DNA of 64,000 bases from positions 62,001 through 126,000 of the forward strand of contig JAFDIV010000002.1 in NCBI GenBank assembly GCA_019307815.1. Reading direction: 5' to 3'. Shown here one piece after another: positions 29,992 to 49,076 of the stretch (position 1 is its first letter; the number at the start of each line of letters is the position of its first letter). Position numbers and translations under genes: made by a program. The stretch comes from Deltaproteobacteria bacterium (lineage in GTDB: Bacteria > Desulfobacterota > DSM-4660 > Desulfatiglandales > Desulfatiglandaceae). The notes beneath the pieces are model-generated. The model searched no databases. It was not told the DNA's origin and saw only the letters and a program-made list of their open reading frames with translations.

Positions 29992-31065
29992 ATGGGCTTT
30001 ATCGTCAGTATCCTCTTTTCCTTTTTCGCAGTGGTTGTGGTGGTGGCGGTTCCATGGATTGGCGTTGGGGCGCTGGATCTACGGTTTTTATTTGGTATCG
30101 TAGTACCTTATGCTGCAATGGCTATCTTTTTTATTGGGGTTGTAATTCGCGTGATTGACTGGGCGCGTTCCCCTGTGCCGTTCAGGATCCCCACTACAGG
30201 AGGCCAGCAGTGGTCCTTCCCTTGGATCAAGCACAACCGTATTGACAATCCCAAGAGCACTTGGGGGGTAATCCTTAGGATGTTTTTTGAAGTGGTTACC
30301 TTCCGTTCTCTGTTCAGAAACACAAGATTGGAATACAGGAGAGTGGAAGGAGCACCGAAGATAGACTATGAATGGGAGAAATGGCTTTGGCTGGCGGCCT
30401 TACTTTTTCATTACTCATTTTTTGTGATATTTCTTCGGCACTTCCGCTTTTTTATGGAGCCTATTCCCTATTTCGTGCAGATTTTGGATAAACTTGACGG
30501 GTTCTTGGAGCTGGGTATTTTGCCCTTTATCAATGGGCTTGGTGTACCTACTGTATATATAACTGATATGTTGCTGATGCTGGCCTTGACCTATCTATTT
30601 GTAAGGCGATTGTATATCCATCAGGTTCGGTACGTATCCCTTCCAGCTGATTATTTCCCTCTTTTCCTTATTCTGGCACTTGGGTTCACCGGCATTCTGA
30701 TGAGGTATTTCATCAGGGTGGATATCACAGCAGTCAAAACTCTTGCTGTAGGATTATTTAAATTTCACCCCAAGACGCCCGAAGGAATCGGGGTCATATT
30801 CTATATCCATCTATTTTGTATTTCCACGCTTATAGCGTATTTTCCTTTCAGCAAGCTCATGCATTTTGCAGGGATATTCCTGAGTCCCACCAGAAACCTA
30901 TCAAATAATAGCCGAATAAAGCGACATATAAATCCATGGAACTATCCTGTCAAGGTGCATACCTATGAGGAATATGAGGACGAGTTTAGGGAGCTGATGG
31001 TGGAAGCCGGGCTCCCGGTGGAAAAACAGCCTGAGACAACTGCCGAGACGGGAGAAAAGGAGTAA
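29992..31065 (+). CDS. dsrM: DsrM, sulfite reduction-associated complex cytochrome b subunit
   Basis: Polytopic NarI-like protein; first gene of a DsrMKJOP gene order. Confidence 0.92.
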   Translation: MGFIVSILFSFFAVVVVVAVPWIGVGALDLRFLFGIVVPYAAMAIFFIGVVIRVIDWARSPVPFRIPTTGGQQWSFPWIKHNRIDNPKSTWGVILRMFFEVVTFRSLFRNTRLEYRRVEGAPKIDYEWEKWLWLAALLFHYSFFVIFLRHFRFFMEPIPYFVQILDKLDGFLELGILPFINGLGVPTVYITDMLLMLALTYLFVRRLYIHQVRYVSLPADYFPLFLILALGFTGILMRYFIRVDITAVKTLAVGLFKFHPKTPEGIGVIFYIHLFCISTLIAYFPFSKLMHFAGIFLSPTRNLSNNSRIKRHINPWNYPVKVHTYEEYEDEFRELMVEAGLPVEKQPETTAETGEKE

Positions 31066-31069
31066 CTCT

Positions 31070-32698
31070 ATGGCGGACGTTCCAAAACCAGAAGAATTAG
31101 CCCAGATAGACCACCGACCCCCTGTTTTTAGGCCCTGGATTGATAGCCCTGTTGAGATGCGAAAAGGCATCTATTGTTATGGGGCAAAGGGCAAGAATTT
31201 GGCTGTAGTAGATATGCCAAATGCCAGGGACTGGAACCCAGCGGATGAAGACTGGAAGTTGCCCGAGAACTGGGAGGATATTATTAAGGAAGGAATGAGC
31301 GATAGGCTGGATAGATTCCGGTCTTTCAAGCTCTTTATGGACATTTGCGTGCGGTGTGGAGCATGTGCTGACAAATGCCATTTCTTCATCGGCTCGGGTG
31401 ATCCCAAGAATATGCCTGTCTTGAGGGCAGAACTATTAAGGTCGGTGTATAGACGTTACCATACTTTGGGAGGGAAGATCTTCGGCAAACTGGCCGGTGC
31501 TCGTGATCTTACCGAAGACGTGCTCAAGGAATGGTGGTATTACCTGTATCAGTGCACAGAGTGCAGGAGATGTTCACTTTTCTGTCCCTATGGTATTGAT
31601 ACGGCCGAAGTGACCATCATCGGCAGAGAGCTTACAAACCTCCTGGGACTGAATACCGATTGGATCCAGGCCCCAGTTGCAAATTGCTATCGTACAGGTA
31701 ACCACTTGGGCATTCAACCGCACGCTTATAAGGACATGATTGACTTCTTTGTGGATGAGATTGAGGAAGTAACCGGTGTGCGTGTGAATCCTAGCTTCAA
31801 CCGTAAGGGAGCAGAGATCCTTTTCATCACTCCCTCTGGTGACGTGTTTGCAGATCCTGGAACTTACACCTGTATGGGCTACTTGATGCTGTTCCATTAC
31901 TTAGAGAGTATGGGGTTGGACATCACTTGGAGTACCTATGCATCTGAGGGCGGAAATTTTGGCTACTTCACGTCCCATGAGATGGCAAAGCGGTTGAACG
32001 CAAAGATGTATGCCGAGGCCAAGCGTCTTGGCGTGAAATGGATCCTTGGCGGGGAATGTGGACATATGTGGCGCGTTATCAATCAGTATATGGACACGTT
32101 TAACGGACCGGCCGATTTTCTTGAAGAACCGGTTTCTCCCATCACCGGGACCAAATTTGAGAACGGCAAGTCCACCAAGATGGTCCATATCACCGAGTTT
32201 ACCGCAGATCTGATCAGACACAACAAGTTGAACCTTGACCCAAGCCGCAACGATAATCTCGTGGTCACCTTCCATGATTCCTGTAACCCGGCAAGAGGGA
32301 TGGGCCTTTTTGAAGAACCCAGATACGTGATTAAGAGCGTGTGTAACAACTTCTATGAAATGCCTCCCGAGACCATCAGGGAACAGACATTCTGCTGTGG
32401 AAGTGGTGCCGGACTAAATGCCGGTGAAAATATGGAGCTTAGGATGCGAGGGGGGTTGCCGCGTGCCAATGCGGTCAAGTATGTGCATGAAAAGTATGGA
32501 GTGAATATGATGGCCTGCATTTGCGCTATAGACCGCGCTGTGCTGCCTACATTGATGGAATATTGGGTGCCTGAGGTCCAAATTACGGGCGTTCACGAGC
32601 TTGTGGCTAATGCGCTGATTCTTGAAGGAGAGAAGGAAAGAACAACCAATTTGCGCGGCGAACCGCTTCCGGGAATGGAGGAAGAAGAGGATGTATGA
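31070..32698 (+). CDS. dsrK: DsrK, HdrD-like iron-sulfur subunit
   Basis: CVRCGACADKCHFF, CTECRRCSLFCPYG, CCG-type motif FCCGSGAGLNAGENMELRMR. Confidence 0.94.
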   Translation: MADVPKPEELAQIDHRPPVFRPWIDSPVEMRKGIYCYGAKGKNLAVVDMPNARDWNPADEDWKLPENWEDIIKEGMSDRLDRFRSFKLFMDICVRCGACADKCHFFIGSGDPKNMPVLRAELLRSVYRRYHTLGGKIFGKLAGARDLTEDVLKEWWYYLYQCTECRRCSLFCPYGIDTAEVTIIGRELTNLLGLNTDWIQAPVANCYRTGNHLGIQPHAYKDMIDFFVDEIEEVTGVRVNPSFNRKGAEILFITPSGDVFADPGTYTCMGYLMLFHYLESMGLDITWSTYASEGGNFGYFTSHEMAKRLNAKMYAEAKRLGVKWILGGECGHMWRVINQYMDTFNGPADFLEEPVSPITGTKFENGKSTKMVHITEFTADLIRHNKLNLDPSRNDNLVVTFHDSCNPARGMGLFEEPRYVIKSVCNNFYEMPPETIREQTFCCGSGAGLNAGENMELRMRGGLPRANAVKYVHEKYGVNMMACICAIDRAVLPTLMEYWVPEVQITGVHELVANALILEGEKERTTNLRGEPLPGMEEEEDV

Positions 32699-33077
32699 TG
32701 GAGGTAAGATCATTGTTGGCCTTATCATAGGCATCGGGCTGTTGCTTTCCCCGTTTTTCTATAATGCCGGCAAGGCAGTCAAGGCACCAGAGCCCGAGCT
32801 AACTCCCAAGGCAAAAGAGGCGAAGGTTTGTGTGGCTCCTACGCCTTACATGAGAAACAATCATATGCATCTTTTGGATGATTGGCGCCAGACAGTGGTC
32901 CGGAATGGGGAGAGGTATTACAAGGCCTCAACTGGGAAGATGTATTACAAAAGCTTGCAGGTTACTTGCCTGGATTGCCACTCCAATAAATCAAAATTTT
33001 GTGACCAGTGCCATAACTATATTGGCATGGACCCCTATTGCTGGGACTGCCATATTGTGCCGAAGGAGAATAAGTAA
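32691..33077 (+). CDS. dsrJ: DsrJ, multiheme cytochrome c
   Basis: N-terminal signal/anchor; three CxxCH motifs CLDCH, CDQCH, CWDCH; start ATG 32691 overlaps dsrK. Confidence 0.92.
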   Translation: MYDGGKIIVGLIIGIGLLLSPFFYNAGKAVKAPEPELTPKAKEAKVCVAPTPYMRNNHMHLLDDWRQTVVRNGERYYKASTGKMYYKSLQVTCLDCHSNKSKFCDQCHNYIGMDPYCWDCHIVPKENK

Positions 33078-33871
33078 TGGGTATTAGCAGAAGAAGGTTC
33101 CTAAAAGTGGCCGGCCTTTCCGCGATTATGGCGGTAGGGGGAAAGGCAGGTTTTGAGCTGTTGCGTCCTGGGCAGGTAGAAGCATCCCTTCCCCTGACAA
33201 AGGGAAAAAGGTGGGCCATGGTCATTGACATGCGTAAAGTCACGGACGAAATTATCCAGAAATGTAAAGAGGCATGCCACAAGGCACATAACGTACCTGA
33301 ATTCGGGAATCCGAAGGTGGAGCTTAAATGGATCTGGGAGGAGGAATTTGAGCATGCCTTTCCAGACCAAGAGCATGAATACGTTGCTGATGGGATAAAG
33401 GATAAAGGTTTCCCGTTGCTTTGCAACCACTGTTCAAATCCGCCCTGCTGTCGTGTGTGTCCGACAGGGGCCACTTGGCAGAGGGAAGACGGAATTGTGA
33501 TGATGGACTGGCACCGGTGTATAGGTTGCCGGTTCTGTATGGCAGGTTGCCCATATGGGTCCAGGAGTTTTAATTGGGGTGATCCCGGAAAGGCACCAAA
33601 GGAATTGAATCCGGATTTCCCAACAAATCCCGATTTTCCCACAAGGACCCTTGGGGTGGTGGAAAAGTGTACCTTTTGCAATGAGAGGTTAGCAAAGGGG
33701 CAGTTGCCGATCTGCGTGGAGGAGGCAAATAAAATAGAGAAGGATTCATTTATCTTTGGTGACTTGGCTGATCCGGACTCCAATGTAAGAAAGGCTCTCC
33801 GGAAACACTTTGCTATTCGTCGGAAACCTGAGTTGGGGACGAGTCCTAATGTTTATTACATTATAGGGTGA
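33077..33871 (+). CDS. dsrO: DsrO, periplasmic ferredoxin-like subunit
   Basis: Tat-like signal SRRRFLKVAGLSAI; CNHCSNPPCCRVCPTGAT, CIGCRFCMAGCPYG. Confidence 0.94.
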   Translation: MGISRRRFLKVAGLSAIMAVGGKAGFELLRPGQVEASLPLTKGKRWAMVIDMRKVTDEIIQKCKEACHKAHNVPEFGNPKVELKWIWEEEFEHAFPDQEHEYVADGIKDKGFPLLCNHCSNPPCCRVCPTGATWQREDGIVMMDWHRCIGCRFCMAGCPYGSRSFNWGDPGKAPKELNPDFPTNPDFPTRTLGVVEKCTFCNERLAKGQLPICVEEANKIEKDSFIFGDLADPDSNVRKALRKHFAIRRKPELGTSPNVYYIIG

Positions 33872-33878
33872 GGTTGTT

Positions 33879-35036
33879 ATGCTTGATAGAGCATTGAAAG
33901 GAAGTAGTAGGTATTGGGGGTGGTTGATATTTCTTTTGGTCTTAATGGGTATAGGCTTTGCCTGCTACCTTTACCAGTTCAAGGTAGGTTTGAAGATTAC
34001 AGGTATGAGCCGCGATGTTTCCTGGGGTCTATATATATCCCAACTTACCTACCTAGTCGGAGTGGCAGCCTCAGGGGTAATGGTGGTGCTTCCTTATTAC
34101 CTACATGATTACAAGGCCTTTGGCAGGATTACCATATTGGGAGAGTTCATGGCCATTGCCGCAGTTCTCATGTGCCTGCTTTTTGTTATGGTGGATCTAG
34201 GGAAGCTGCCCCGCCTCATGAACATCATTATGTATCCCCATCCCAAGTCCATTCTCTTTTGGGATATGATCGTTTTGAACGGATACTTGATATTGAATAT
34301 CTTGATCGGATGGAATGTACTGGCCGCTGAACGCAAGGGTGTGCATTATTCCACATGGGTCAAGGTGTTAATATACATTTCCATACCCTGGGCCTTCAGT
34401 ATCCATACAGTTACTGCGTTCCTTTACGCAGGCCTGCCCGGAAGGCATTTTTGGCTGACCGCGATCATGGCACCACGCTTTTTAGCCTCCGCCTTTTGTT
34501 CAGGTCCAGCAATTCTCCTTCTCATAGCCCTGGTCGTAAGAAAATTCACCAATTTTGATCCAGGCAAGGAGCAGATAAGGACACTTGGAGGCATTATTGC
34601 CTATGCATTCATTATAAACATATTCTTCTTCCTAATGGAGATATTCACCTCATTTTACAGCCAAATCCCAGGCCACATGCATTCCTTTGTATATTTATTC
34701 CTGGGGCTTGATGGATACGGAAAACTGGCTCCCTGGATGTGGACTTTCGTCTTTTTTGCAATTGTGGCCTTGATACTATTGATTATTCCCTCAACCCGCA
34801 GGAAAGAGGATACCCTAGCGATTGCGTGCGCTGCAGTTGTGATATCCACCTGGATTGACAAGGGCCTTGGGTTGATCATTGGAGGATTTGTGCCTAACCC
34901 GTTTGAGAGAGTCTTTGAATACTGGCCCACGACTCCTGAGGTCTTGATTACCATTGGTGTGTGGGCCATGGGATTTTTCGTGTTGACCGTGCTTTTCAAG
35001 ATTGCCGTATCCATCAAGGAAGAAGTGGCTGCATAG
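33879..35036 (+). CDS. dsrP: DsrP, NrfD-like integral membrane subunit
   Basis: Polytopic NrfD/PsrC-like protein at the end of dsrMKJOP. Confidence 0.93.
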   Translation: MLDRALKGSSRYWGWLIFLLVLMGIGFACYLYQFKVGLKITGMSRDVSWGLYISQLTYLVGVAASGVMVVLPYYLHDYKAFGRITILGEFMAIAAVLMCLLFVMVDLGKLPRLMNIIMYPHPKSILFWDMIVLNGYLILNILIGWNVLAAERKGVHYSTWVKVLIYISIPWAFSIHTVTAFLYAGLPGRHFWLTAIMAPRFLASAFCSGPAILLLIALVVRKFTNFDPGKEQIRTLGGIIAYAFIINIFFFLMEIFTSFYSQIPGHMHSFVYLFLGLDGYGKLAPWMWTFVFFAIVALILLIIPSTRRKEDTLAIACAAVVISTWIDKGLGLIIGGFVPNPFERVFEYWPTTPEVLITIGVWAMGFFVLTVLFKIAVSIKEEVAA

Positions 35037-35738: not shown

Positions 35739-36164
35739 TTATTTCTTTGCATGACACTGGCTGCACTTCTTATATGGGCCGGTTTTCTTACCCGCTTTGG
35801 CTAATTTCTTATGGCAGGTTTTGCAATTCTTGTGATAGGCATTCTGCAGCTTGGGAACCTTGCCCTGTTTCTTTAGGGGATTATGGCACTTGCTGCAATG
35901 CTGCACAGGGTCTCCCTCTTTCCACACGTTTTTGCCGTTTTGATAATCATGATGGCATTCTGTGCAGGCAACCTTGTAGTCTGCATGATGCTTTTTGTGT
36001 GAAAAGTGGACAGGGCCTTTTTTGTCCGCCTTATACCCGGTATTATTAATGACGATCTGATCGGGAACATCAGCCGCAACAAGTACCCCTACCACGAGGA
36101 AGACAAGACCTACAAGAAGAACAACAAGCAGCCCAAGACCTTTTCTCTTCATCCGCTCTTTCAC
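35739..36164 (-). CDS. Tetraheme cytochrome c3 family protein
   Basis: Signal peptide; CTECH, CSKCH, CKTCH, CSQCH heme motifs with extra histidines (FSHKKHH). Confidence 0.93.
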   Translation of the reverse strand: MKERMKRKGLGLLVVLLVGLVFLVVGVLVAADVPDQIVINNTGYKADKKGPVHFSHKKHHADYKVACTECHHDYQNGKNVWKEGDPVQHCSKCHNPLKKQGKVPKLQNAYHKNCKTCHKKLAKAGKKTGPYKKCSQCHAKK

Positions 36165-36263: not shown

Positions 36264-36503
36264 CTATGTCTTAGGGGGCTCATCATCAAGTAATTGGGCC
36301 ATTTCCTTTAGGACCTTTAGTGACTCCATGGCCTCGGCCTCGTCGATTTTGTGAATAGCAAAACCGGCATGTACGATAACATAGTCACCTACCTTTGCAT
36401 CATTTAAGAGAAGTAGGCTTACCTCCCTTTGGGTTCCATCCATGTCGATGGTACCCATTCCGTCGTTTATCTCTATGATTTTAGCAGGGATTGCAAGACA
36501 CAT
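36264..36503 (-). CDS. hypC: Hydrogenase assembly chaperone HypC/HupF family
   Basis: N-terminal MCLAIPAKII, VGDYVIVHAGFAIHKID. Confidence 0.94.
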   Translation of the reverse strand: MCLAIPAKIIEINDGMGTIDMDGTQREVSLLLLNDAKVGDYVIVHAGFAIHKIDEAEAMESLKVLKEMAQLLDDEPPKT

Positions 36504-37020
36504 AATTCAATTGCTCCTCAGTGTTTTTCTCAATAGGATTAACTCCCAGGGCTTTTAACTCCTCCAAAACCATTTCTAGAAGAGAGTCCATTTTTTTCTT
36601 TACAGCGGGCGTCAATTCTAGACTGACAGAAATGATATCCTGGGGCTCTAGTCCCAATATAACTGTTTGTGGCACCTTATCAAGAGCTTGGCATAGTGTT
36701 AGGGCCTCTAAGAGGTCGATTTCATGGAGGGAGTTTTTTGCAAATATACGGCGAGGAATATCATTACCGGTTAGCTTGTAAAGCGTGCCAGGGGGGCCTC
36801 CATTCTTTATGGCATCAACTACTATGAGGTGGTCCGCTTTTGTTATAGTACCTAAAAGGTGAATTCCAAGAACGCCACCATCTATAATTGATACATGATC
36901 AGGAAACCGATACCGCTGTTGGAGGGCCTCCACTGCCCGAATTCCAAGACCTTCATCGGACAAAAGAAGATTGCCTACGCCCAATACTATAATATGAGGT
37001 CTTTTTTGTTCCATGGCCAT
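36481..37020 (-). CDS. Hydrogenase maturation protease (HyaD/HybD/HysD family)
   Basis: ILGVGNLLLSDEGLGIRAVEAL, IDGGVLGIHLL; between hydrogenase structural genes and hypC. Confidence 0.93.
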   Translation of the reverse strand: MAMEQKRPHIIVLGVGNLLLSDEGLGIRAVEALQQRYRFPDHVSIIDGGVLGIHLLGTITKADHLIVVDAIKNGGPPGTLYKLTGNDIPRRIFAKNSLHEIDLLEALTLCQALDKVPQTVILGLEPQDIISVSLELTPAVKKKMDSLLEMVLEELKALGVNPIEKNTEEQLNYVSCNPC

Positions 37021-37110: not shown

Positions 37111-38178
37111 CTAGAGCTTAAGCTTAGTATAGCGGAAAATGGCTACCAATATCAATCTGTTTATTTGATATTCTTGTTCTATTTCCGTTTTTTTTGGAAG
37201 TGCTAAGTTGATCTCTTTAAAGGCCTTTGTTATCAGATCCTCTGTGCTGTCGTACAATGAAGGGCTCTTGTAAGAGGCTATGCCAAAGTTCATATGGATA
37301 TGAACAGGTTTGTCGCTTTTACTCAGTGCAAGGTCATATTCCGGAAATATGTACATGCAGTAGGCTGTCCCTACTGCGATAAGAAAGACCGGGACAATCA
37401 TGGTGAGCATGGAAAGTGGTGTGCCTGTCCAGGCCATAAGCCCAAAGGTCCAAATTAGCCCCATGATCACAGAGCCAGCCGGTATAATAACGCCCATTGG
37501 AGTACGCATGAAAAGGAAGAGGACAAGAGCAATAATGAGAAATGTGATGGGGGGCAGATGGAAAAAGTCCTTTTTTGTAAACCTAGCGAGGGCATTCGCT
37601 ACGATGGGCATGCCGATTTGATAGAGGTAAAGTGGTTCCTCTTTAATGATTTCTTTGACCTTTTCAATAATCGTTTTCTTGCTTTTGATATCTTTGAGGA
37701 CTAGGCAGATTGCCGTGGTTCTTTCGCCCCAGGAAATAAGATTATTCTTGAATGATTCTATAGGAGAAATGATGGCCCTGAACTCGCCCAAGGACATTTG
37801 CCCGGATAGATCTATAGCCCTTCTTGCCTCTGGAAGGCTGATGATCCTTTTCACGCCTTTTACCTTGGACAACTTTTTCCCGAGGTTGTCCAACTGAGCA
37901 AACGCCTTAGGATCGAAGATGTGTTGGGCCTTGGCTACTACAAGAATAATCTCTTCTGAGCCAAAAGTTTGCTTGAAGGTCTGGTATTGTTTGGTTTGAG
38001 GAAGATCTTCAATGGCCAGGTCATATATGCTGGTTCTAAAGCGTAGGTTCGGAAGTTGAACGGCGAAGATGAGCGTGATTACAAGGTTGATGATAATTAC
38101 ATGCCATGGATGTTGGATGATAGTTCGAAGTAGGGACTTAGGACCCAAGTGGGCCGCGACTGAAGAGGCAGGCTTCAT
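37111..38178 (-). pseudogene. Truncated RND/MMPL-family exporter N-terminal half joined to a GGDEF-like C-terminal fragment
   Basis: Residues 1 to about 270 look like an MMPL/RND N-terminus (ending VPVFLIAVGTAYCMYIFPEY); the tail (KPVHIHMNFGIASYKSPSLYDSTEDLITKAFKEINLAL) resembles the end of a GGDEF domain. No second RND half present. Confidence 0.5.
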
Positions 38179-38254: not shown

Positions 38255-39895
38255 TTAGAGCACCTTGATCTTGTATACCTGGTTCGAGTCTGGATCGATT
38301 ACGTGTACACCACAGGCGATACAAGGATCAAATGAGTGAACAGTCCGTAGTATTTCCAGCGGGCGTTTGGGATCTGCAACAGGGGTTCCAATGAGGGACT
38401 CTTCCACTGGTCCGAGTTTGCCATTTTTGCATCGTGGGCAAAGGTTCCAAGTGGAAGGTACAACGAGCTGATAATTCTTTATCTTCTTGTTTTCAATTTG
38501 GATCCAATGGCCCAAGGAGCCTCTGGCCACGTCATTCAGGCCGCAGCCCATACCGCTATTAGGCATTTCCCAAGGCTCGTAAGTTTTGGTATTTCCCTTT
38601 TTGAGGTTGCTTACAAGCTCCATGGTCCATTTTTCCATAGCATTGCCTATGGCCACTGTCTCAATGCAGCGTGCTGCAGTCCTGCCAAGGGTGGAGAATA
38701 GGGCTGTAACAGGAATGCTCAACTTGCTCACGACGCTGTCCACGATTTCCTTAATCTCTTTCTTACCCCAGGCATATGCAACCAGTACCCTAGCCAGTGG
38801 CCCTACTTCGCATGGCTCGCCTTCATAGCGAGGTGCCTTGAACCAACTATATCTGCCAGTTGTGTCATAGTCTCCATGCTGTGGTTCTGTTTCACCCTGA
38901 TATGGATGCCTTGCCTCATCTCCTTTATACCAGGAATGGGCTACATGTTCTGTTACCTTACCAGGATCAGCCATTCGGACGCCCTTCAGGTTTCGTTTCA
39001 TGATTACGCCACGAGGCATAAAAAGGCTTTCGGGCTCCTTATCTGACTCTGGGAGGTCACCCCATGCCAAGAAGTTGGTTGTGCCACCAATCTTGCCCCA
39101 TTCTTTATAAAAGGAAGCTACTGCAAGGACATCTGGGAGGTAGACATTTTTGACAAAATCCTGGGTTTCTTTCCACAGATAAAGGAATTCTGCAATCCGG
39201 TCAGGATTCAGGTCGCCTACACAGGTAACTCCTCCCACTACAAAGCTCTGGAGATGGGGATTTTTGCCTCCAAAGATGGCATGCATTCTTGCAGCTTTAG
39301 CCTGTAGTCTAAGGGCTTCCAGGTAATGGGATACTGCCATCAGGTTGGCTTCAGGTGGCAACTGGTAAGCAGGGTGTCCCCAGTAGGCGTTGTTAAATGG
39401 ACCTAGCTGTCCGCTTTCCACAAAGGTTTTTATCCTTTGTTGAACGCTCTTAAAATAGGCTGTACCACCCCATGGAGCATTACTTACATTATCGGCTAAG
39501 GCCGCTGTCTTTTTGGGATCTGCCTTTAGGGCGCTGACCACATCCACCCAGTCCAAGGCATGAAGATGATAGAAGTGGACAATATGGTCATGCTGGAACT
39601 GGGCACCGTGAAGCATGTTTCTTATAATTCGTGCGTTATCAGGAATCTGAACTCCTACCGCGTTTTCCACTGCCCTCACCGAGGCCAGGTAATGCGTCAT
39701 CGTTCAGACGCCTCAGACCCGTTGGGTAATCAGTGGCGCGTCTCTTGGGTCACGCCCCCTGAGTATGATTTCAATCCCCCTGAACATCTGGCCGGAGCTC
39801 CAGGCATTGACTACCTTTCCTCCGGAGATTTCCACCTCTATTCTCAAATGACCCTCGATTCTGGTAATCGGATCTATGGTAATCTTTTTGGCCAT
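38255..39895 (-). CDS. hysA: [NiFe]-hydrogenase large subunit, predicted selenoprotein with two in-frame UGA (Sec) codons at the L1 motif
   Basis: ORFs 39713-39895 (MAKKITIDPITRIEGHLRIEVEISGGKVVNAWSSGQMFRGIEIILRGRDPRDAPLITQRV) and 38255-39700 (MTHYLASVRAVENAV...DPCIACGVHVIDPDSNQVYKIKVL) share one frame and are separated by TGA-GGC-GTC-TGA-ACG. Readthrough gives RV-U-GV-U-TMTHYLAS, matching canonical RVCGVCTxxHYLAS with both Cys as TGA. Gene symbol by analogy. Confidence 0.9.
39670..39688 (-). promoter_or_regulatory. Candidate bacterial SECIS hairpin for hysA
   Basis: Minus strand CTG-g-CCTC-GGT-GAGG-g-CAG: 7 bp with one G.G mismatch and a GGU loop at 24-26 nt after the second TGA (33-35 nt after the first). 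Confidence 0.6.
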
Positions 39896-39953: not shown

Positions 39954-40901
39954 TTACTCACTTTGGACGAAAAACGGGCTCATCTTATCCCAAAAGTCGG
40001 GTTCACTACAGCCGATACAGGGATGTCCCGCTTCAATTGGGAAGCTGGTTCCATCATTAAACTTGGCGATGGGGCAATTATTATAAGTATCCGGCCCCTT
40101 GCATCCCATTTTATATAGACAATAACCCTGAGCGGCTTCTTCGGAGCCAAACTCTTCCACGAATTCATCATTTTCAAAGTGAGACCTTCTGGGACACTGA
40201 TCATGAATCGTTTTGCCATAGGCAAACAAGGGTCTGCCGAGCTCATCCAGCTCGGGCAACTTGCCCAAGAGGAGATAATTGACCACAGTCCCTACGAAAT
40301 TGATAGGATTTGGCGGGCAGCCGGGAATATTGACCGTTTTGATGCCCAAGGCCTCACCTACTCCCTTATACCCTCCAGGATTAGGCGCAGCCGCCTGTAC
40401 ACCACCATAGGAAGCACAGGTCCCTACACAGATCACAGCCGCGGCCTTAGGACACACTTCTTTGGCAATTTCCAAAAAGGTCTTGCCACCGATTTTCCCA
40501 TAGGCTCCGTTGTATTTGGTGGCAATAGCACCCTCAACCACGCAAATAAATTTGCCTTTATATTTCTTTACTGCCGACTGAAGAATTTCTTCTGCCTGGT
40601 GACCTGCTGCCGCCATAATGGTTTCGTGATATTCGGCTGAAATGATCTCTAAAAGCAGTTCGTCAATCCATGGGTACATAGTGCGCAAAAGGGCCTCAGA
40701 ACACCCTGTGCACTCGGCGAACTGCAGCCAAACTACGGGCGGCCGTTGTTTAGGTGCGGCAAAGACCTCAGCCACTTTGGGGATAAAGGAAGACGAAAGT
40801 CCCAAGGTGGCTGTAAGCATGCCGCAGTACTTCATAAAGTCCCTTCGTGAGACGCCCTTTTCCGATAACCTCTGGTAAAACTCCTTCTCCTCATAGCTCA
40901 T
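39954..40901 (-). CDS. hysB: [NiFe]/[NiFeSe]-hydrogenase small subunit, periplasmic (Tat signal)
   Basis: SRRDFMKYCGMLTATLGLSSSFIP Tat signal; WLQFAECTGCSEALLRTMYPW; CVGTCASYGG; CPRRSHFE; C-terminal Fe-S cysteines. Confidence 0.95.
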   Translation of the reverse strand: MSYEEKEFYQRLSEKGVSRRDFMKYCGMLTATLGLSSSFIPKVAEVFAAPKQRPPVVWLQFAECTGCSEALLRTMYPWIDELLLEIISAEYHETIMAAAGHQAEEILQSAVKKYKGKFICVVEGAIATKYNGAYGKIGGKTFLEIAKEVCPKAAAVICVGTCASYGGVQAAAPNPGGYKGVGEALGIKTVNIPGCPPNPINFVGTVVNYLLLGKLPELDELGRPLFAYGKTIHDQCPRRSHFENDEFVEEFGSEEAAQGYCLYKMGCKGPDTYNNCPIAKFNDGTSFPIEAGHPCIGCSEPDFWDKMSPFFVQSE

Positions 40902-41067: not shown

Positions 41068-41634
41068 GTGGGTCCTCCAGACAAAGGCATGAAGGGAAAA
41101 TTCCATCCTGAACAAGAAGAACTGATAAAAATTCTAAAGGTTCCTGCCTGTTACCAATGCAAACGCTGCACCAACGGCTGTCCTGTGACCTTTGCTATGG
41201 ACCTCTATCCCGACCAGGTAATTAGACGTGTTGGGATGGGGCAGTTGGACAAGGTGCTTACTTGCAGAACCATCTGGATTTGTTCTTCGTGTGAGACATG
41301 CACTACTCGATGCCCAAATGAAGTGGACATAGCTGGAGTAATGGACTTTCTGAAGGAGCTTGCCATTGAGGCAGGCATTGAGCCCCCTGAGCCCAGGACC
41401 CTTGCCTTTCATGAAAGTTTCCTTAAGGAAATCCAGAAAAGAGGACGGGTTTTTGAAGGTGGCCTAATGCAGCGCTATATGCTCAAGAGCGGTGATCTGT
41501 TTGCCAAGCTTCGGGATGGCTCCATCTGGGATGACGTGAGCATGGGGATAAGACTTATGAAAAAGGGACGATTGCCATTGCTGCCTGAAAGGATAAAGGA
41601 TAGGAAGGAGATTCGGGAATTGATGCAGAAGTAG
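41068..41634 (+). CDS. hdrC: Heterodisulfide reductase subunit C-like protein
   Basis: CYQCKRCTNGCPVTF and CSSCETCTTRCPNEVDI; followed by hdrB and hdrA. Confidence 0.92.
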   Translation: MGPPDKGMKGKFHPEQEELIKILKVPACYQCKRCTNGCPVTFAMDLYPDQVIRRVGMGQLDKVLTCRTIWICSSCETCTTRCPNEVDIAGVMDFLKELAIEAGIEPPEPRTLAFHESFLKEIQKRGRVFEGGLMQRYMLKSGDLFAKLRDGSIWDDVSMGIRLMKKGRLPLLPERIKDRKEIRELMQK

Positions 41635-41716
41635 ATCCTAATATGTCTCTTTGAAGGCTGTTTTTGAGAGAGGCCTTTTATCCTGTGCGTTAAATGTGCC
41701 CTGTTTTTATTTAAAT

Positions 41717-42595
41717 ATGAACGAATTAATCAGAAAAGTCAGTTACTATCCAGGATGTTCACTTAGGGGGACAGCGAGGGACTATGCGGAATCAGTGGAG
41801 GCCGTTTGTCCCATGTTGGGTGTGGAGTTGGAGGAACTGGAAGATTGGAATTGTTGCGGTGCTACAGCAGCCCATAGCTTGAACAAACGAATTGCCATAA
41901 ACTTGGCGGGTAGGAATGTAAGGATTGCGGAAGAGATCGGGAAGGATATGGTGGTCCCTTGCCCCCTCTGTTTCAATAGGCTTAAGACAGCACAAAAGGA
42001 GCTGACCAGCGAGAGGAAAGGACTCTATGATGTGAAAATACAGGGAGGGAAAATTACCATATGGGATCTGGCCAGCTTCTTGGCCCAGGAAGAAATCCTG
42101 AAATTCATGGCCGAAAAGGTGATTCATCCTTTGAGCGGTTTAAGGGCTGTTTGTTACTATGGGTGCATGGCGAGCCGACCCCCTGCCATCACAGGAGAAA
42201 AACACTACGAAGATCCCACCAGTATGGATCGTATCCTTGAAAAATTGGGTGTGACAGTACTTCCCTGGTCACACAAGACAGACTGCTGTGGTGCAAGTCA
42301 TGTGGTGGCACGCCCCGATGTGGTTTCCATTTTGGTGGGGAGGCTTTTTAAGAAGTCCTTTGCCGCAGGGGCCAACTGTATTGTGGTGTCGTGTCAGATG
42401 TGCCATGCAAACCTGGATCTATATCAGGAAAGGATTATGGCTGAGCAAGGGCTTACAGGTAAGCTCCCTGTGCTCTATTTTACGGAGTTGATTGGTCTGG
42501 CCTTAGGACATAAGGATGCCAAAAAATGGCTAAAGATGCATTTTGTGGATCCCATTGGACTCATGGAGGAGTTTTGTAATCTTTCCTTGGCGTAA
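41717..42595 (+). CDS. hdrB: Heterodisulfide reductase subunit B-like protein
   Basis: YYPGCSLRGTARDYAES, WNCCGA, second CCG motif YYGCMAS...DCCGASH...CQMCH. Confidence 0.93.
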   Translation: MNELIRKVSYYPGCSLRGTARDYAESVEAVCPMLGVELEELEDWNCCGATAAHSLNKRIAINLAGRNVRIAEEIGKDMVVPCPLCFNRLKTAQKELTSERKGLYDVKIQGGKITIWDLASFLAQEEILKFMAEKVIHPLSGLRAVCYYGCMASRPPAITGEKHYEDPTSMDRILEKLGVTVLPWSHKTDCCGASHVVARPDVVSILVGRLFKKSFAAGANCIVVSCQMCHANLDLYQERIMAEQGLTGKLPVLYFTELIGLALGHKDAKKWLKMHFVDPIGLMEEFCNLSLA

Positions 42596-42629
42596 GTAAC
42601 TTGAGACAACTGGGGCAATAAGGAAACTT

Positions 42630-45600
42630 ATGGCTGATCAAGTCCTAGAAAAAGTCGGGTCGGTCATGGTAATAGGTGGAGGCATTGCTGGGATGCAGGC
42701 CTCTTTGGATCTAGCCAATGCTGGCTTCAAGGTTTATTTGGTTGAACGAAGGCCGAGCATTGGGGGAATTATGCCCCAGTTGGACAAGACGTTTCCCACA
42801 AACGATTGCTCCACCTGCATTATCTCGCCCAAACTTATTGAGGTGGCCAAACATCCCAACATTGACATTATGGCCTATTCTGAACTGGTCAATGCAGATG
42901 GTAAGCCAGGTCGGTTTAAGGTGACGGTGAGGAAGAAGGCCAGGTATGTGAATGAAGAAAAATGCGTGGCATGCGGCGTTTGTGCATCAAAATGCCCCAA
43001 AAAGGTCCCAAATGAGTTTAATGAAGGGCTGAATCAGAGGAAGGCCATTTACTTGAGCTTTACCCAGGCCATCCCTTCTGTTTACACCATTGATACAGAG
43101 CATTGCATCTACTTTCAAAAGGGTAAGTGTAAGGCCTGTGAGAAGTTTTGTGAGAATTGGGCTATTGACTTTGGACAAAAAGATGAACTCCTTGAGTTGG
43201 AAACAGGGGCCATTATCTTGGCCACGGGTTTTGAGACCACAGACCCAACCATTCGACCAGAATACGGCTATGGGCGCTATCCCAATGTGATCACAAGTAT
43301 AGAATTTGAGCGCTTTCTATCAGCAGCGGGTCCCTTTGAGGGCCATATTCAGCGGCCCTCAGATGGGAAGGAGCCCGTAAAGATCGGGTGGATCCAATGT
43401 GTGGGATCCCGGGATGCCTCCAAGGGCAAGGACTACTGCTCCTATGCATGTTGCATGTATGCCACAAAGGAGGCAATCATTGCAAGGGAGCATGATTCCC
43501 GGATTCAGCCAACCATCTTCTATATCGATATACGGGCCCAGGGAAAGGGATTTGACCGCTATTACGAACGAGCAAGGACTGAGCATGGGGTCCGGTATAT
43601 AAGGAGCATGATATCCCGGATTACGGAAGATCCCTTAACCCATGACCTGGAGGTCCATTATCTGGATGAGGACGGCCAGTTCAAGGATGAAGTGTTTGAT
43701 CTCATGGTCCTGTCTGTGGGGTTTTCGCCCAGTGCGTATTCTCAAGAGGTTGCCAAGATACTTGGTATTTCTGTGGATGGATTTGGTTTCTGTGTAAACC
43801 GCCCATTAAACCTTGTCTCTACCAACCGCGAGGGGATCTATGTCTGTGGCGTGGCCCAGGCCCCCAAGGATATCCCTGATTCCGTAACTCAGGCCAGCGG
43901 TGCCTCGGCCGAGGCAATGGCCCTTTTGGGAGAGGTGCGTAACACCTTGATCTCCGAAGAGACATATCCTGATGAATTGCCTGTTTTGGGTGAAGAGCCA
44001 AGGATAGGTGTCTTTGTGTGTCACTGTGGGAACAACATTGCGGGTGTGGTAGATGTAGAGGCCGTAAGCCAGTATGCCCGGACTTTACCCCAGGTGGTGT
44101 TTGCCGATCATTTCCTCTTTACCTGCTCAAGCGACACGCAAAAGAGGATACAGGAGATTGTCCGTGAGCAGAAGCTGAATCGAGTGGTGATCGCCTCCTG
44201 TTCCCCGCGGACCCATGAACCCCTCTTTCAGGATACGGCCCGAAAGGCTGGATTAAACAAATACCTGGTCGAGATGGCCAACATCAGGGACCAGTGCTCC
44301 TGGGTGCACGCCGAGGACCCCATAAAGGCCACGGAAAAGGCCAAAGACCTCGTGCGAATGTCTGTGGCCCGAAGCGCATTACTTGAGCCCCTTTATGAAT
44401 TTCCATTCAAGGTCTCCCAAAGGGCCCTTGTCATTGGCGGGGGCATGGCAGGCATGACAGCTGCCCTGAATCTCTCAGCCCAAGGCTTTGAGGTGGTGCT
44501 GGTTGAAAAAGAGGCTGTCTTGGGCGGAAATGCCTTGAAACTCCATTATGGCCCCCGGGATGAGGATATCATGGCCTTGGTTCAGGAGGCTATCCGTTCT
44601 GTGGAGCAGGATTGTCGTATCACGGTATATACCAATGCCCAGGTGATGGAGACCTCCGGGCATGTGGGAAAATTTCAAACAAGGGTGATGACACCTGAGG
44701 GTGAAGAAGTAATATCCCATGGGGCCACGATCGTGGCCACAGGAGGGGCAGAATACCAGCCTGACCAATACCTTTATGGCCAGCATCCCCGTGTAATGAC
44801 CCAAAGGGATTTCCAGGCGAAGCTTGCGGAAGATCCTGGTTTTCCGGGGATGGGCAACATCGTCATGATGCAGTGTGTGGGTTCGCGGGACGAGGCCCAT
44901 CCCTATTGTAGCAGGATCTGCTGCACCCAGGCTGTCACAAATGCCCTCAGGGTCAAAAGGAGGTATCCAGAGGCGGAGGTGACCATCCTTTTCCGGGATA
45001 TGAGGACATTTGGACTCTATGAATTGCTTTACAAGGAGGCCAGGGAGGCTGGGGTTCAGTTTGTAAGATATGAACTGGGCCAGGGGCCCGAGGTTCGAGA
45101 AAAAGACGGGGGGCTGGAGGTGGAGGTATTTGACCAGAACCTCAAGGAGCAGATGAGCCTAAAAGCGGATTATATGGTCCTCAGCGTTGCCATCCGGCCC
45201 GAGGAGTCCAGCAAGGAACTTGCCACGTCCCTGAAGCTTCCTTTGGATCCTGATGGCTTCTTTTTGGAGGCCCATGTCAAGCTAAGGCCATTGGACTTTG
45301 CCAATGCCGGATATTTTCTGTGCGGCCTGGCCCATGGGCCCAAGTTTTTGGATGAGAGTATTGCCCAGGCCAAAGGTGCCGCATCCAGGGCCGCTGAGGT
45401 GCTTTCCAAGGAACAAATGATGGTGGAGGCCCAGGTGGCGGTGGTGGACAGGGAGAAATGTGTACTTTGTCTGACCTGTGTGCGTTCCTGTCCCTTTGGT
45501 GTGCCCAAGGTGGCCGAGGATGGCTTTATCCAGATAGACCCTGCTGAATGCCACGGATGTGGCATCTGTGCGAGCGCTTGCCCCCGCAAGCTCATCCAGG

Positions 45601-45650
45601 TACAGCATATGAAGGATGAACAGATCCTTGCCAAGGAGATGGCGTTGTGA
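42630..45650 (+). CDS. hdrA: Heterodisulfide reductase subunit A-like protein, double-flavin form (1006 aa)
   Basis: Two Rossmann FAD motifs (VMVIGGGIAGMQASLDLANAGFKV; ALVIGGGMAGMTAALNLSAQGFEV), CVACGVCASKCPK and C-terminal CVLCLTCVRSCPFG / CHGCGICASACPRK ferredoxin motifs. Confidence 0.93.
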   Translation: MADQVLEKVGSVMVIGGGIAGMQASLDLANAGFKVYLVERRPSIGGIMPQLDKTFPTNDCSTCIISPKLIEVAKHPNIDIMAYSELVNADGKPGRFKVTVRKKARYVNEEKCVACGVCASKCPKKVPNEFNEGLNQRKAIYLSFTQAIPSVYTIDTEHCIYFQKGKCKACEKFCENWAIDFGQKDELLELETGAIILATGFETTDPTIRPEYGYGRYPNVITSIEFERFLSAAGPFEGHIQRPSDGKEPVKIGWIQCVGSRDASKGKDYCSYACCMYATKEAIIAREHDSRIQPTIFYIDIRAQGKGFDRYYERARTEHGVRYIRSMISRITEDPLTHDLEVHYLDEDGQFKDEVFDLMVLSVGFSPSAYSQEVAKILGISVDGFGFCVNRPLNLVSTNREGIYVCGVAQAPKDIPDSVTQASGASAEAMALLGEVRNTLISEETYPDELPVLGEEPRIGVFVCHCGNNIAGVVDVEAVSQYARTLPQVVFADHFLFTCSSDTQKRIQEIVREQKLNRVVIASCSPRTHEPLFQDTARKAGLNKYLVEMANIRDQCSWVHAEDPIKATEKAKDLVRMSVARSALLEPLYEFPFKVSQRALVIGGGMAGMTAALNLSAQGFEVVLVEKEAVLGGNALKLHYGPRDEDIMALVQEAIRSVEQDCRITVYTNAQVMETSGHVGKFQTRVMTPEGEEVISHGATIVATGGAEYQPDQYLYGQHPRVMTQRDFQAKLAEDPGFPGMGNIVMMQCVGSRDEAHPYCSRICCTQAVTNALRVKRRYPEAEVTILFRDMRTFGLYELLYKEAREAGVQFVRYELGQGPEVREKDGGLEVEVFDQNLKEQMSLKADYMVLSVAIRPEESSKELATSLKLPLDPDGFFLEAHVKLRPLDFANAGYFLCGLAHGPKFLDESIAQAKGAASRAAEVLSKEQMMVEAQVAVVDREKCVLCLTCVRSCPFGVPKVAEDGFIQIDPAECHGCGICASACPRKLIQVQHMKDEQILAKEMAL

Positions 45651-46129
45651 TGGGAGAGTTTGAGCCAAAAATTATCGCCATGGTTTGCACCTATTGTACC
45701 TATACGGCGGCTGATATGGCCGGGTCCATGCGGCTGCAATACCCGTCCAATGTTCGGATCGTCAAGTTGCCCTGCACAGGGAGAATCGATGTGATCCATA
45801 TTTTGAAGACCTTCCAGGCCGGAGCAGACGGCATCCTTGTGGGTGGATGAGAGGTTGGTGATTGTCATTTCCTGGAAGGAAATCTAAGGGCAAAAGAACG
45901 GGTAGAGCACGCCAAGGATCTTTTAGATGAGATTGGCATCGGTGGTGATAGGCTTGAGATGTACCATATTGGGGCCTCTGATGCCCCCCTTTGGGCAGAG
46001 AAAGTCAGGGAGATGACAGAGCGAATCAAGGCCCTGGGGCCCAATCCATTGAACGTGGTGAGACAGAATCGTTCAATATCGGAACCTGGAGATAAAGATG
46101 ATAGTAGCCAAGCGGAAACCCTTTCCTGA
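45650..46129 (+). CDS. mvhD: MvhD-family iron-sulfur protein, predicted selenoprotein (one in-frame UGA)
   Basis: ORF to ...QAGADGILVGG, then TGA at 45848-45850, then in-frame EVGDCHFLEGNLRAKERVEHAKDLLDEIGIGGDRLEMYHIGASDAPLWAEKVREMTERIKALGPNPLN to TGA 46127-46129. Canonical MvhD reads GGCHPGDCHYxEGN; TGA replaces the first Cys. Confidence 0.92.
45867..45883 (+). promoter_or_regulatory. Candidate bacterial SECIS hairpin for mvhD
   Basis: ATTTCC-TGGAA-GGAAAT, loop at 23-27 nt after the TGA. Confidence 0.6.
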
Positions 46130-46778
46130 GATCATGGAGAGTTTGGAAGGCTATGACAAGGTTTTGATCCTCGGTTGCGGCACATGTGTGGCCGTGTGCC
46201 TTGCCGGAGGGGAAAAGGAGGTGGGGCTTCTTTCCTCTCAACTTGCCATTGCCTATGAGTTGAAGGAGAAATCCTTGGAGATTGGTGAGGCAACGGTTGA
46301 GAGACAATGTGATCGGGAGTTTTTGCAAGAGATTCGTCATCAGATAAAGGAATATCCTGTAATCCTGTCACTGGCATGTGGAGTAGGAGTTCAGTTCTTG
46401 GCCGAAGCATACCCTGACAAGATTGTGTTGCCGGGAGTGGATACTGCCTTTATCGGGTCTAATGATGATGTGGGGCTTTGGACCGAGCGGTGCAGGATGT
46501 GCAACCAGTGTTATTTGGCGTTAACAGGAGGAGTGTGTCCCGTTACCATGTGTCCAAAAGGTCTGCTCAACGGCCCATGCTCGGGGATGCGAAATGGTCG
46601 ATGCGAGGTGGGCCCGGACAGAACCTGTGCCTGGGTGTTGATTTACGAGCGGATGAAAGAAACAGGTCGTTTGGAGCGTGTCCAAACAGTGCTGCCTCCT
46701 CGCGACTATTCAAGGAGCACAACACCTGCTGTACTCACTCACAAGGCGTATAGAAGGAGATATTCGGCCAATGAGTAA
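46098..46778 (+). CDS. metV: MetV, methylenetetrahydrofolate reductase-associated zinc/Fe-S protein
   Basis: CGTCVAVCLAGGEKE, CRMCNQCYLALTGGVCPVTMCPKGLLNGPCSGMRNGRCEV. Confidence 0.92.
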   Translation: MIVAKRKPFPEIMESLEGYDKVLILGCGTCVAVCLAGGEKEVGLLSSQLAIAYELKEKSLEIGEATVERQCDREFLQEIRHQIKEYPVILSLACGVGVQFLAEAYPDKIVLPGVDTAFIGSNDDVGLWTERCRMCNQCYLALTGGVCPVTMCPKGLLNGPCSGMRNGRCEVGPDRTCAWVLIYERMKETGRLERVQTVLPPRDYSRSTTPAVLTHKAYRRRYSANE

Positions 46779-47661
46779 ATTCCGTGAGAGATTGGAATCG
46801 GGCGAATTTCTGGTTACCGTGGAAGCCTCGCCTCCCAAAGGTACTGAAACGGCGGACTTCCTGGCAATGCTCGGTAAATTGGCAGGCAGAGTTGACGCTA
46901 TAAACCTGCCAGATTCCCGTGCAGCAAATATCCATTTAGGTCCTTTGGCCGCGTCAATACTTGCGAAGGAAAAGGGCCTTGAGCCCATTTTGACCATATC
47001 ATGCAGGGACAGGAATAGGATTGCGATTAGTGCAGACCTTTTGGGAGCATACGTCCTGGGTATTGACACCATTCTATGTGTGAGCGGTGATTATGTTAGC
47101 TTTGGGGATGCCCCTCAGGCAAAGCCCGTATATGATTTGGATTCAGTTCAGGCCATTAAGATGATTCGTGGTATGGAAGCGGGCGAGGATATAGGTGGAA
47201 ATGTCTTAAAGGGCACGCCCCGGTTTTGTGTGGGTTGTGTGGCCAATCCGGTGGCCGATCCTTTTGAGCCGCATCTATTGAAGCTGGAAAAAAAATTGGC
47301 AGTGGGCGTGGATTTTATCCAGACCCTCGACATCTATGACCTAAATGCAGCGGCCCCGTTTTTGGACTATGTCAGGGATAAAGGGATAAAGGCATTGGCC
47401 GGGCTAAGGCTTGTTACAAAACGGGACGTTGACCTGTGGGAGAATCGCAGGCTCCCTGGTAACGATATACCCCGTGAGATCATATCAGAGGTGAAAGAAG
47501 CCCCTACCGAGGAGGAGGCATTGCAAAAGTCAAGGGCTAGGCTAGTGACTATGCTCAAGGAAATAAGGGCCTCAAACATGTGGGCGGGGGCCCATATCAC
47601 AATGGAAGGTCACGAGGATTTGATTCCCCAGATACTCACGGAAGCGGGATTAGGCAGATAG
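46771..47661 (+). CDS. metF: Methylenetetrahydrofolate reductase, MetF family
   Basis: MSKFRERLESGEFLVTVEASPPKGTETADFL; start at ATG 46771 overlapping metV. Confidence 0.9.
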   Translation: MSKFRERLESGEFLVTVEASPPKGTETADFLAMLGKLAGRVDAINLPDSRAANIHLGPLAASILAKEKGLEPILTISCRDRNRIAISADLLGAYVLGIDTILCVSGDYVSFGDAPQAKPVYDLDSVQAIKMIRGMEAGEDIGGNVLKGTPRFCVGCVANPVADPFEPHLLKLEKKLAVGVDFIQTLDIYDLNAAAPFLDYVRDKGIKALAGLRLVTKRDVDLWENRRLPGNDIPREIISEVKEAPTEEEALQKSRARLVTMLKEIRASNMWAGAHITMEGHEDLIPQILTEAGLGR

Positions 47662-47697
47662 TAGAGGGAGCAGAAAGGGGGAAACAGCAGATTGGTG

Positions 47698-48942
47698 ATG
47701 AAGGAAGAATCGGTAGTTGTAGTAGGAGGCGGAATAACAGGCCTAACAGCAGCTCTTGAACTTAGGCACTTAGGCAAACGGGTGCTGGTGATAGAGAGAG
47801 GTCCCTTCGTAGGCGGACATGCTGCTGTGTTGCCGTGCAAGGCAACGGATCGTTGCCTCAAGTGTAATGACTGCCTAGTGGAAGAAGTGCTAAGAGAATT
47901 GAAGGAAGATAGCCCTTTACGGTTTGAGACCTATGCCAAGGTTGTAGATATTAGAAAAAACGGAGGCCCGTATATAGTAACAATAGAGACGGGTCCGTGT
48001 TCGGTCGATTGGGAAAGGTGCACGGATTGTGGTGCATGCCTGAAGGCATGTGTGGACTCAGGTCATAAGGCAATTGAGCGGGCTCCTTCCATTAACATCC
48101 ACCCTTTTTATGGTGTCAGGACAGAGATGTGTACATGCCTGAGGGAGGGGAGGGCACCTTCATGTATAGAGGCTTGTCCGGAGGGGGCCATAAAGATTTT
48201 GGACAAAACAGACTCTTTTGATGTGGAGGCAAAGGGTATTATATTGGCATCCGGCTTTCGGCCTTATGAGCCTGAACGACCAAACCGATATGGCTATGGA
48301 CACCTGCCTAATGTAATAACCACTCAACAGGCGGATAAGATGCTTCGTGAGGAGGGTAAGGTTGTCCGCCCTTCAGACCGCAACATTCCAAAGAAAGTGG
48401 CCTTTGTCCAATGTGTAGGCAGTAGGGATAGACGGCTTGGCAGGGAGTATTGTTCCCGGGTGTGCTGTGGGTACTCTTTGCGCATGGCCCTCCATATGGT
48501 TCACATTTGGCCGGATATGGATATCACCGTTTTCTACATGGATGTTCAGAATTTTGGTAAAGATTTTGAGCGTTATTACAAAGAGGCAATGAGGAAGCTT
48601 AGGATGATCAGGGGACTTCCAGGGGACTTTTATGGTACTCAAAACGGCGAAGTTTTGGTGAGCTATTTTTCAGAGCAGCAAGGCAGAACCATTTCGGAGT
48701 CTTTTGAATTGGTCCTGCTCACGGTGGGACTGTCTCCTGACCAAGAGGCCAGAGCCTTAGGAGAGAGGCTTGGATTGCAGGTTAATGAAGATGGCTTTTT
48801 TATAGCCGAGGAGCATGCGGCAAAAGAGGGAGTGATTGTGGCCGGGACAGCGCGTGGGCCCATGGATGTGGCCGAGTGTATTTGTGATGCTAAAAGGGCG
48901 GCCTTGGAGATGAAAAGATATCTTGACGGTATTTACGAATAA
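47698..48942 (+). CDS. HdrA/QmoA-like FAD-iron-sulfur protein
   Basis: VVVVGGGITGLTAALELRHLGKRVLVIERGPFVGGHAA, CTDCGACLKAC; 400+ aa with no C-terminal ferredoxin tail, resembling QmoA. Confidence 0.85.
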   Translation: MKEESVVVVGGGITGLTAALELRHLGKRVLVIERGPFVGGHAAVLPCKATDRCLKCNDCLVEEVLRELKEDSPLRFETYAKVVDIRKNGGPYIVTIETGPCSVDWERCTDCGACLKACVDSGHKAIERAPSINIHPFYGVRTEMCTCLREGRAPSCIEACPEGAIKILDKTDSFDVEAKGIILASGFRPYEPERPNRYGYGHLPNVITTQQADKMLREEGKVVRPSDRNIPKKVAFVQCVGSRDRRLGREYCSRVCCGYSLRMALHMVHIWPDMDITVFYMDVQNFGKDFERYYKEAMRKLRMIRGLPGDFYGTQNGEVLVSYFSEQQGRTISESFELVLLTVGLSPDQEARALGERLGLQVNEDGFFIAEEHAAKEGVIVAGTARGPMDVAECICDAKRAALEMKRYLDGIYE

Positions 48943-49076
48943 ACAACGATACGCAGTACATCCATATGGCACGATCCATTATTGGCTGCCCCAGGATACA
49001 ATATTAAGAGGACCATGAGGGGGCTTAGGAAAAAGCAGGGTCCCCATTGGATGGGGACTGTCATTTTGGTTTGTAA

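Follow-up and report, generated by a model that had tools for sequence, protein, structure and literature searches.

The gene at positions 38255..39895 on the minus strand of the DNA stretch analysed here (the window, 64 kb) very likely encodes the large subunit of a periplasmic [NiFe] hydrogenase of the Desulfovibrio vulgaris Miyazaki type, with selenocysteine (Sec) inserted at both UGA codons of the N-terminal nickel motif (L1). No protein or selenium data are available for it. The first-pass annotation had claimed a UGVU motif in L1, Cys in the C-terminal motif and a 546-aa read-through product on the minus strand. This claim held, both in the reading frame and in a whole-genome search, which recovered the same gene with two TGA codons inside and gave no second match.

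The frame runs from an ATG at 39895 to a TAA ending at 38255, and contains no stop besides TGA 61 (39713..39715) and TGA 64 (39704..39706), by which the canonical RVCGVC becomes RV-UGA-GV-UGA in the context ITQRV-U-GV-U-TMTHYLASVRAV. Both ligands of the C-terminal nickel motif in DPCIACGVH (38312..38323, minus strand) are Cys codons, namely TGT at 38321-38323 and TGT at 38312-38314. Of the four Cys ligands that define group 1 [NiFe] large subunits (RxCxxC ... DPCxxC), those of the second motif are present while L1 fails with UGA/UGA. The read-through protein matched Pfam PF00374 over the full-length domain (E 1.7e-227), and its nearest solved relative was the D. vulgaris Miyazaki enzyme 1h2a (phmmer E 3e-220; ~60% identity). 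An AlphaFold2 model built with 30 homologs reached a mean pLDDT of 79.5 and a pTM of 0.85, with the last 20 residues poor, and it resembled 4u9h with a TM of 0.92 at 60% identity. The reading frame and its conservation thus show a complete, conserved and recoded large subunit, the function of which is only inferred in its details.

In the alignment to 1h2a, residues 61, 64, 525 and 528 correspond to Cys81, Cys84, Cys546 and Cys549. Cys84 and Cys549 of 1h2a bridge Ni and Fe, Cys81 and Cys546 serve as terminal Ni ligands, and the Sec of classical [NiFeSe] enzymes is found at the Cys546 equivalent. From this alignment it is inferred that Sec64 bridges Ni and Fe and that Sec61 binds Ni terminally. 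The earlier idea of a distinct active site with two selenolates, one of them bridging, is supported, yet it remains an inference from the alignment.

To assess conservation, 215 homologous large-subunit loci, including some partial genes, were read at the four ligand sites. The states were CUCC in 78, CCCC in 66 and UUCC in 52 loci, and among the partial genes UU-- in 10, CU-- in 7, and CUC- and --CC in one each. In total, 148 of the 215 large subunits had an in-frame TGA, either only at codon 64 or at both codons 61 and 64, which far exceeds chance, and the C-terminal ligands were Cys in all TGA-bearing homologs complete at that end. At precisely codons 61/64, orthologs from the same order (77-92% identity) have UGVU, CGVU or CGVC, and such alternation of in-frame UGA and Cys is what is expected of a selenoprotein gene. 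On both sides of the TGAs, close relatives are under purifying selection (pN 0.03-0.14, pS 0.65-0.94). The UGVC form was found in none of 395 genomes of the phylum; therefore, Sec61 seems to arise only where Sec64 is present. As far as the titles show, all UGVU genes come from uncultivated genomes. The 148 TGA-bearing genes contain only one TGA outside L1, at residue 31 of L115, which could be a sequencing error or an additional recoded site.

When 84,980 species were scanned for exact matches to QRx[U/C]G[V/I]U, at least 119 loci were returned, and 118 of the 119 were true hydrogenase large subunits. By nearest-reference assignment, lineage A, which holds the present gene (Desulfobacterota), accounted for 37 CGVU and 8 UGVU loci, CGVU being its most frequent form; lineage B (Nitrospirota, Chloroflexota and others) for 43 UGVU; the Hyd-2-like lineage C (Nitrospirota, Desulfobacterota, Spirochaetota and others) for 21 CGVU and 1 UGVU; and lineage D (Syntrophomonadaceae, Bacillota) for 7 CGVU, including one from the isolate Syntrophomonas zehnderi. 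One outlier fell outside A-D, and the label "Myxococcota" among the loci reflects the NCBI filing of unnamed Deltaproteobacteria. TGA-bearing hydrogenases thus span at least five phyla and at least four hydrogenase lineages, three of which include the UGVU form (52 of the 118 loci). The first-pass annotation had missed this spread and the Cys61/Sec64 form, which is also common, as well as the hairpin and the second UGA-reading tRNA described below.

On a 178-row tree, parsimony put the minimum number of changes at 18 for site 64 and 8 for site 61, gain and loss not being distinguished, and a single clade of all UGVU rows was rejected on a 72-row tree (p-AU 1e-49). Within lineage A, the residues M66 and F218 occur together in 7 of 7 double-Sec sequences vs 2 of 64 others. 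These two exceptions, L019 and L121, are CGVU sequences that cluster with UGVU rows in the trees, which together with the shared residues suggests that they reverted from Sec61 to Cys61. The Bacillota CGVU group-1 hydrogenases, mostly of Syntrophomonadaceae, are L113, L124, L144, L150, L157, L161 and L165, and L113, from the S. zehnderi isolate, offers a culturable test case. A very divergent large subunit from Thermodesulfovibrionales (L077), with CGVU and the C-terminal motif YDFCIACAVH, is likely a further separate occurrence of the L1 Sec form.

Downstream of L1 lies a SECIS-type hairpin, CUGGCCUC-GGU-GAGGGCAG (39670..39688, minus strand), the loop of which starts 23 nt past UGA64 and 32 nt past UGA61. 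Bacterial SECIS elements have a spacing of ~16-37 nt and a G early in the loop, and both distances fit that range. A hairpin is present in all lineages, and those of the other lineages differ in sequence while occupying a similar place (ACCGCCUC-GGU-GAG(A)GCGGU; ACGCACUG-GCUU-CAGUGCGU; GCCAGCG-CGGGAU-CGCUGGC). The synonymous sites are frozen in the TGA forms only. Among the TGA-bearing members of the present lineage, no part of the gene is more frozen at synonymous sites than codons 69-75, where the excess identity is 0.63, which is 7 s.d. above the gene-wide mean of 0.11 (s.d. 0.07), whereas in the Cys forms the excess at these codons is an unremarkable 0.12. Relative to synonymous shuffles, the hairpin energies of the TGA forms also differ from those of the Cys forms (p 1e-14), although this value is only a guide because related sequences are not independent. 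In the lineage labels of these tests, B was merged with C and the outgroup Cys forms were placed under A, which does not affect the U-versus-C comparison. Folding energies computed over a longer stretch of 42 nt set the two groups apart only weakly; it was the tests of the local hairpin and of codon freezing that decided the matter. A constrained downstream hairpin with a G in the loop, as required of bacterial selenoprotein genes, is thereby shown. One CGVC gene (L030, from genome G036) retains a perfect hairpin in codons 61-75 (z -3.6) and is for this reason read as a likely recent Sec-to-Cys reversion. The loss of selA from the same genome was only apparent, as it reflects a contig end.

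The genome encodes selA, selB, selD and a canonical tRNA-Sec, and so possesses the machinery needed for selenoproteins. The tRNA-Sec has the discriminator G73 and an encoded CCA, and selD has an in-frame TGA of its own followed by a hairpin. In the order, selA scored above the cut-off in 19 of 21 TGA-form genomes, the exceptions (G006 and G074) being fragmented drafts. Elsewhere in the genome (G000), contig C13 carries a second UCA-anticodon tRNA, selC*-like with a U73 discriminator (L048:6633-6722, minus strand), and a diverged, frame-broken selB (L048:617-2627, minus strand), with a frame-broken HdrA gene and yqeB nearby. These could belong to a UGA-to-Cys system or to a contaminating contig.

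Several other explanations of the two TGAs were weighed. A pseudogene or sequencing artefact might be suspected when a draft-genome gene has two stops no more than 12 bases apart, but both TGAs are common to independent genomes, strong purifying selection flanks them and there are no further stops, so that this explanation is all but excluded. The outcomes named in advance as refuting the double-Sec claim point the same way: instead of random stops, relatives show Sec/Cys interchange at just codons 61 and 64; rather than TGC or TGT, as resequencing might have revealed, the independent assemblies of relatives retain the TGAs; and selA, selB, selD and tRNA-Sec are all present. A global reassignment of UGA was ruled out, since TGA is the ordinary stop of several neighbouring genes. 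It could also be that only Sec64 is used and that UGA61 is leaky or mis-assembled, the protein being mostly truncated or heterogeneous there. In favour of this, CGVU is the commonest form in lineage A, the decoding of two UGAs should lower the yield, and UGVC is missing from the 395 genomes. However, UGVU recurs in three lineages, with 43 of its 52 scan loci coming from lineage B, codon 61 is exactly TGA in every UGVU gene, and M66 and F218 are correlated with the double form; we regard the Sec64-only reading as very unlikely.

The remaining rival holds that a selC*-type tRNA-Cys(UCA) and a second SelB read both UGAs as Cys, which would yield an ordinary CxxC [NiFe] hydrogenase. Pairs of selC* tRNA-Cys and selB* are known from Desulfobacterales and Syntrophobacterales (PMC7609411), and the U73 UCA tRNA beside a diverged selB on contig C13 resembles them. 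On the other hand, that selB copy is frame-broken, no selB* homolog was found in 15 of the 21 TGA-form genomes of the order (drafts, so absence is uncertain), among them the double-TGA genomes G002, G023, G027, G028 and G041, and selB* does occur in the Cys-form genomes G011 and G040. Moreover, the hairpin and the canonical selABCD set are enough to explain the decoding. Recoding by selC*/selB* was set aside, as selB* did not follow the trait across these draft genomes. We consider reading as Cys unlikely, and it is kept at low probability because the genomes are drafts.

The neighbouring genes agree with a group 1 periplasmic enzyme. Directly upstream on the minus strand is the small subunit with a twin-arginine signal (39954..40901; TIGR00391 E 1e-127, TIGR01409 TAT signal, PF14720, PF01058), and the large subunit is followed by a short MMPL/RND-type frame of 355 aa (37111-38178), a maturation endopeptidase of the HyaD/HybD family (36481..37020; TIGR00140 E 8e-50, PF01750) and a TmcA-like tetraheme cytochrome c3 (35739..36164; NF045722 E 8e-23, under the curated cut-off; PF02085), all on the same strand. 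A TAT-bearing small subunit and a maturation protease thus adjoin the large subunit, as expected for this group. The endopeptidase would cut the C-terminal tail after His531, and the cytochrome is likely the electron acceptor of the hydrogenase. The MMPL/RND-type frame, at about half the usual length, appears truncated. Judged mostly by gene order and size, a plus-strand run at 29992-35036 resembles a DsrMKJOP-type complex and another at 41068-50690 an HdrCBA/MetFV/HdrA-MvhD cluster; flanking the hydrogenase genes, they are consistent with a sulfate reducer. Among the long read-through frames examined in the window, no further Sec gene was convincing.

We therefore return to the double-Sec hydrogenase as the preferred reading, the working of which is inferred. 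After TAT export the enzyme would act in the periplasm. The Sec machinery would insert Sec at UGA 61 and UGA 64, with one SECIS hairpin, 23 and 32 nt downstream, presumably serving both codons. In the folded enzyme, Sec64 would take the place of the bridging L1 Cys and Sec61 that of the terminal L1 Ni ligand, while both C-terminal ligands would remain Cys, even at the terminal position where classical [NiFeSe] enzymes have Sec. Most probably the enzyme oxidises H2 and passes the electrons via the small subunit to the c3-type cytochrome encoded alongside. The actual selenium content, the sharing of one hairpin and the H2 oxidation are all predictions. The advantage may well lie in repairable oxidation at the L1 selenium, an inference resting on reports that certain inactive states of standard enzymes have the L1 bridging sulfur S-oxygenated (D. 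fructosovorans Cys75), and on the easy reduction of selenium oxides. It is not obvious, given that in E. coli Hyd-2 engineered with a single Sec at 61, 64, 546 or 549 each variant was active but had lowered H2-oxidation activity (PMC11212049).

With the Desulfovibrio periplasmic [NiFe] hydrogenases (D. vulgaris Miyazaki 1h2a/4u9h; D. fructosovorans) the present enzyme shares the fold, ~60% identity, the small subunit, the C-terminal ligands and tail and the periplasmic export signal, but their L1 holds Cys81/Cys84 where Sec-Sec is encoded here. Like HysAB of D. vulgaris Hildenborough and Desulfomicrobium baculatum and the archaeal VhuU/FruA, it would bind Ni in the active site through naturally occurring Sec, whereas those have one Sec as the C-terminal terminal ligand; here the Sec residues would be N-terminal, one of the two bridging, and the C-terminal ligands are all Cys. 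The large subunit is less similar to HysA than to [NiFe] enzymes, and membership in HysA was rejected (NF045518 433 bits vs a cut-off of 780; DPCIAC instead of DPUxxC). It lies just at the cut-off of NCBIfam NF033181, "NiFeSe_hydrog" (600/600), and the S. zehnderi CGVU protein scores 694. NF033181 is a broad group-1 model; given its name, database curators may already know part of this finding. Sec at positions 61 and 64 of the engineered E. coli Hyd-1/Hyd-2 variants corresponds to the same ligands, the shared numbers being coincidental, but those variants are artificial with one Sec each, and no double L1 Sec was reported there (PMC11212049). Since the single-Sec Hyd-2 variants were active, a natural L1 Sec form is chemically plausible.

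Among the 119 prokaryotic selenoprotein families of an inventory from 2026, hydrogenase Sec appears solely as UxxC in alpha subunits (FrhA, MvhA/VhuU) and as CxxU in delta subunits, and [NiFeSe] enzymes are stated to be limited to sulfate reducers and methanogens (PMC13188914); a 2022 inventory likewise contains no L1 Sec hydrogenase (PMC9312934). To our knowledge, the selenium so far described in natural hydrogenases is confined to the C-terminal terminal ligand. The first-pass annotation had left open whether UxxU enzymes were already described, and no report of a natural L1 Sec hydrogenase was found in the literature searched, most subscription papers lying outside it.

A gene caller that treats UGA as a stop would begin the gene past L1 (here at Met66, giving 481 aa), and UGA-L1 hydrogenases are probably widely mis-annotated in this way. 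The bolder reading, which we hold to be likely, is that they represent a class of natural hydrogenases with selenium as the Ni-Fe bridging ligand which is widespread and has arisen repeatedly, and that the UGVU enzymes have two nearby Sec residues, one SECIS serving two UGAs, a ligand set undescribed for natural hydrogenases in the literature searched. The special role of the C-terminal Sec is central to arguments on the oxygen resistance and H2-production bias of [NiFeSe] enzymes. Enzymes with natural Sec as the bridging ligand, and those with Sec as both L1 ligands, would provide natural counterparts to the engineered variants, so that the question of why selenium is used at this ligand becomes directly testable, and the double-Sec genes would be a model for the decoding of two close UGAs with one hairpin.
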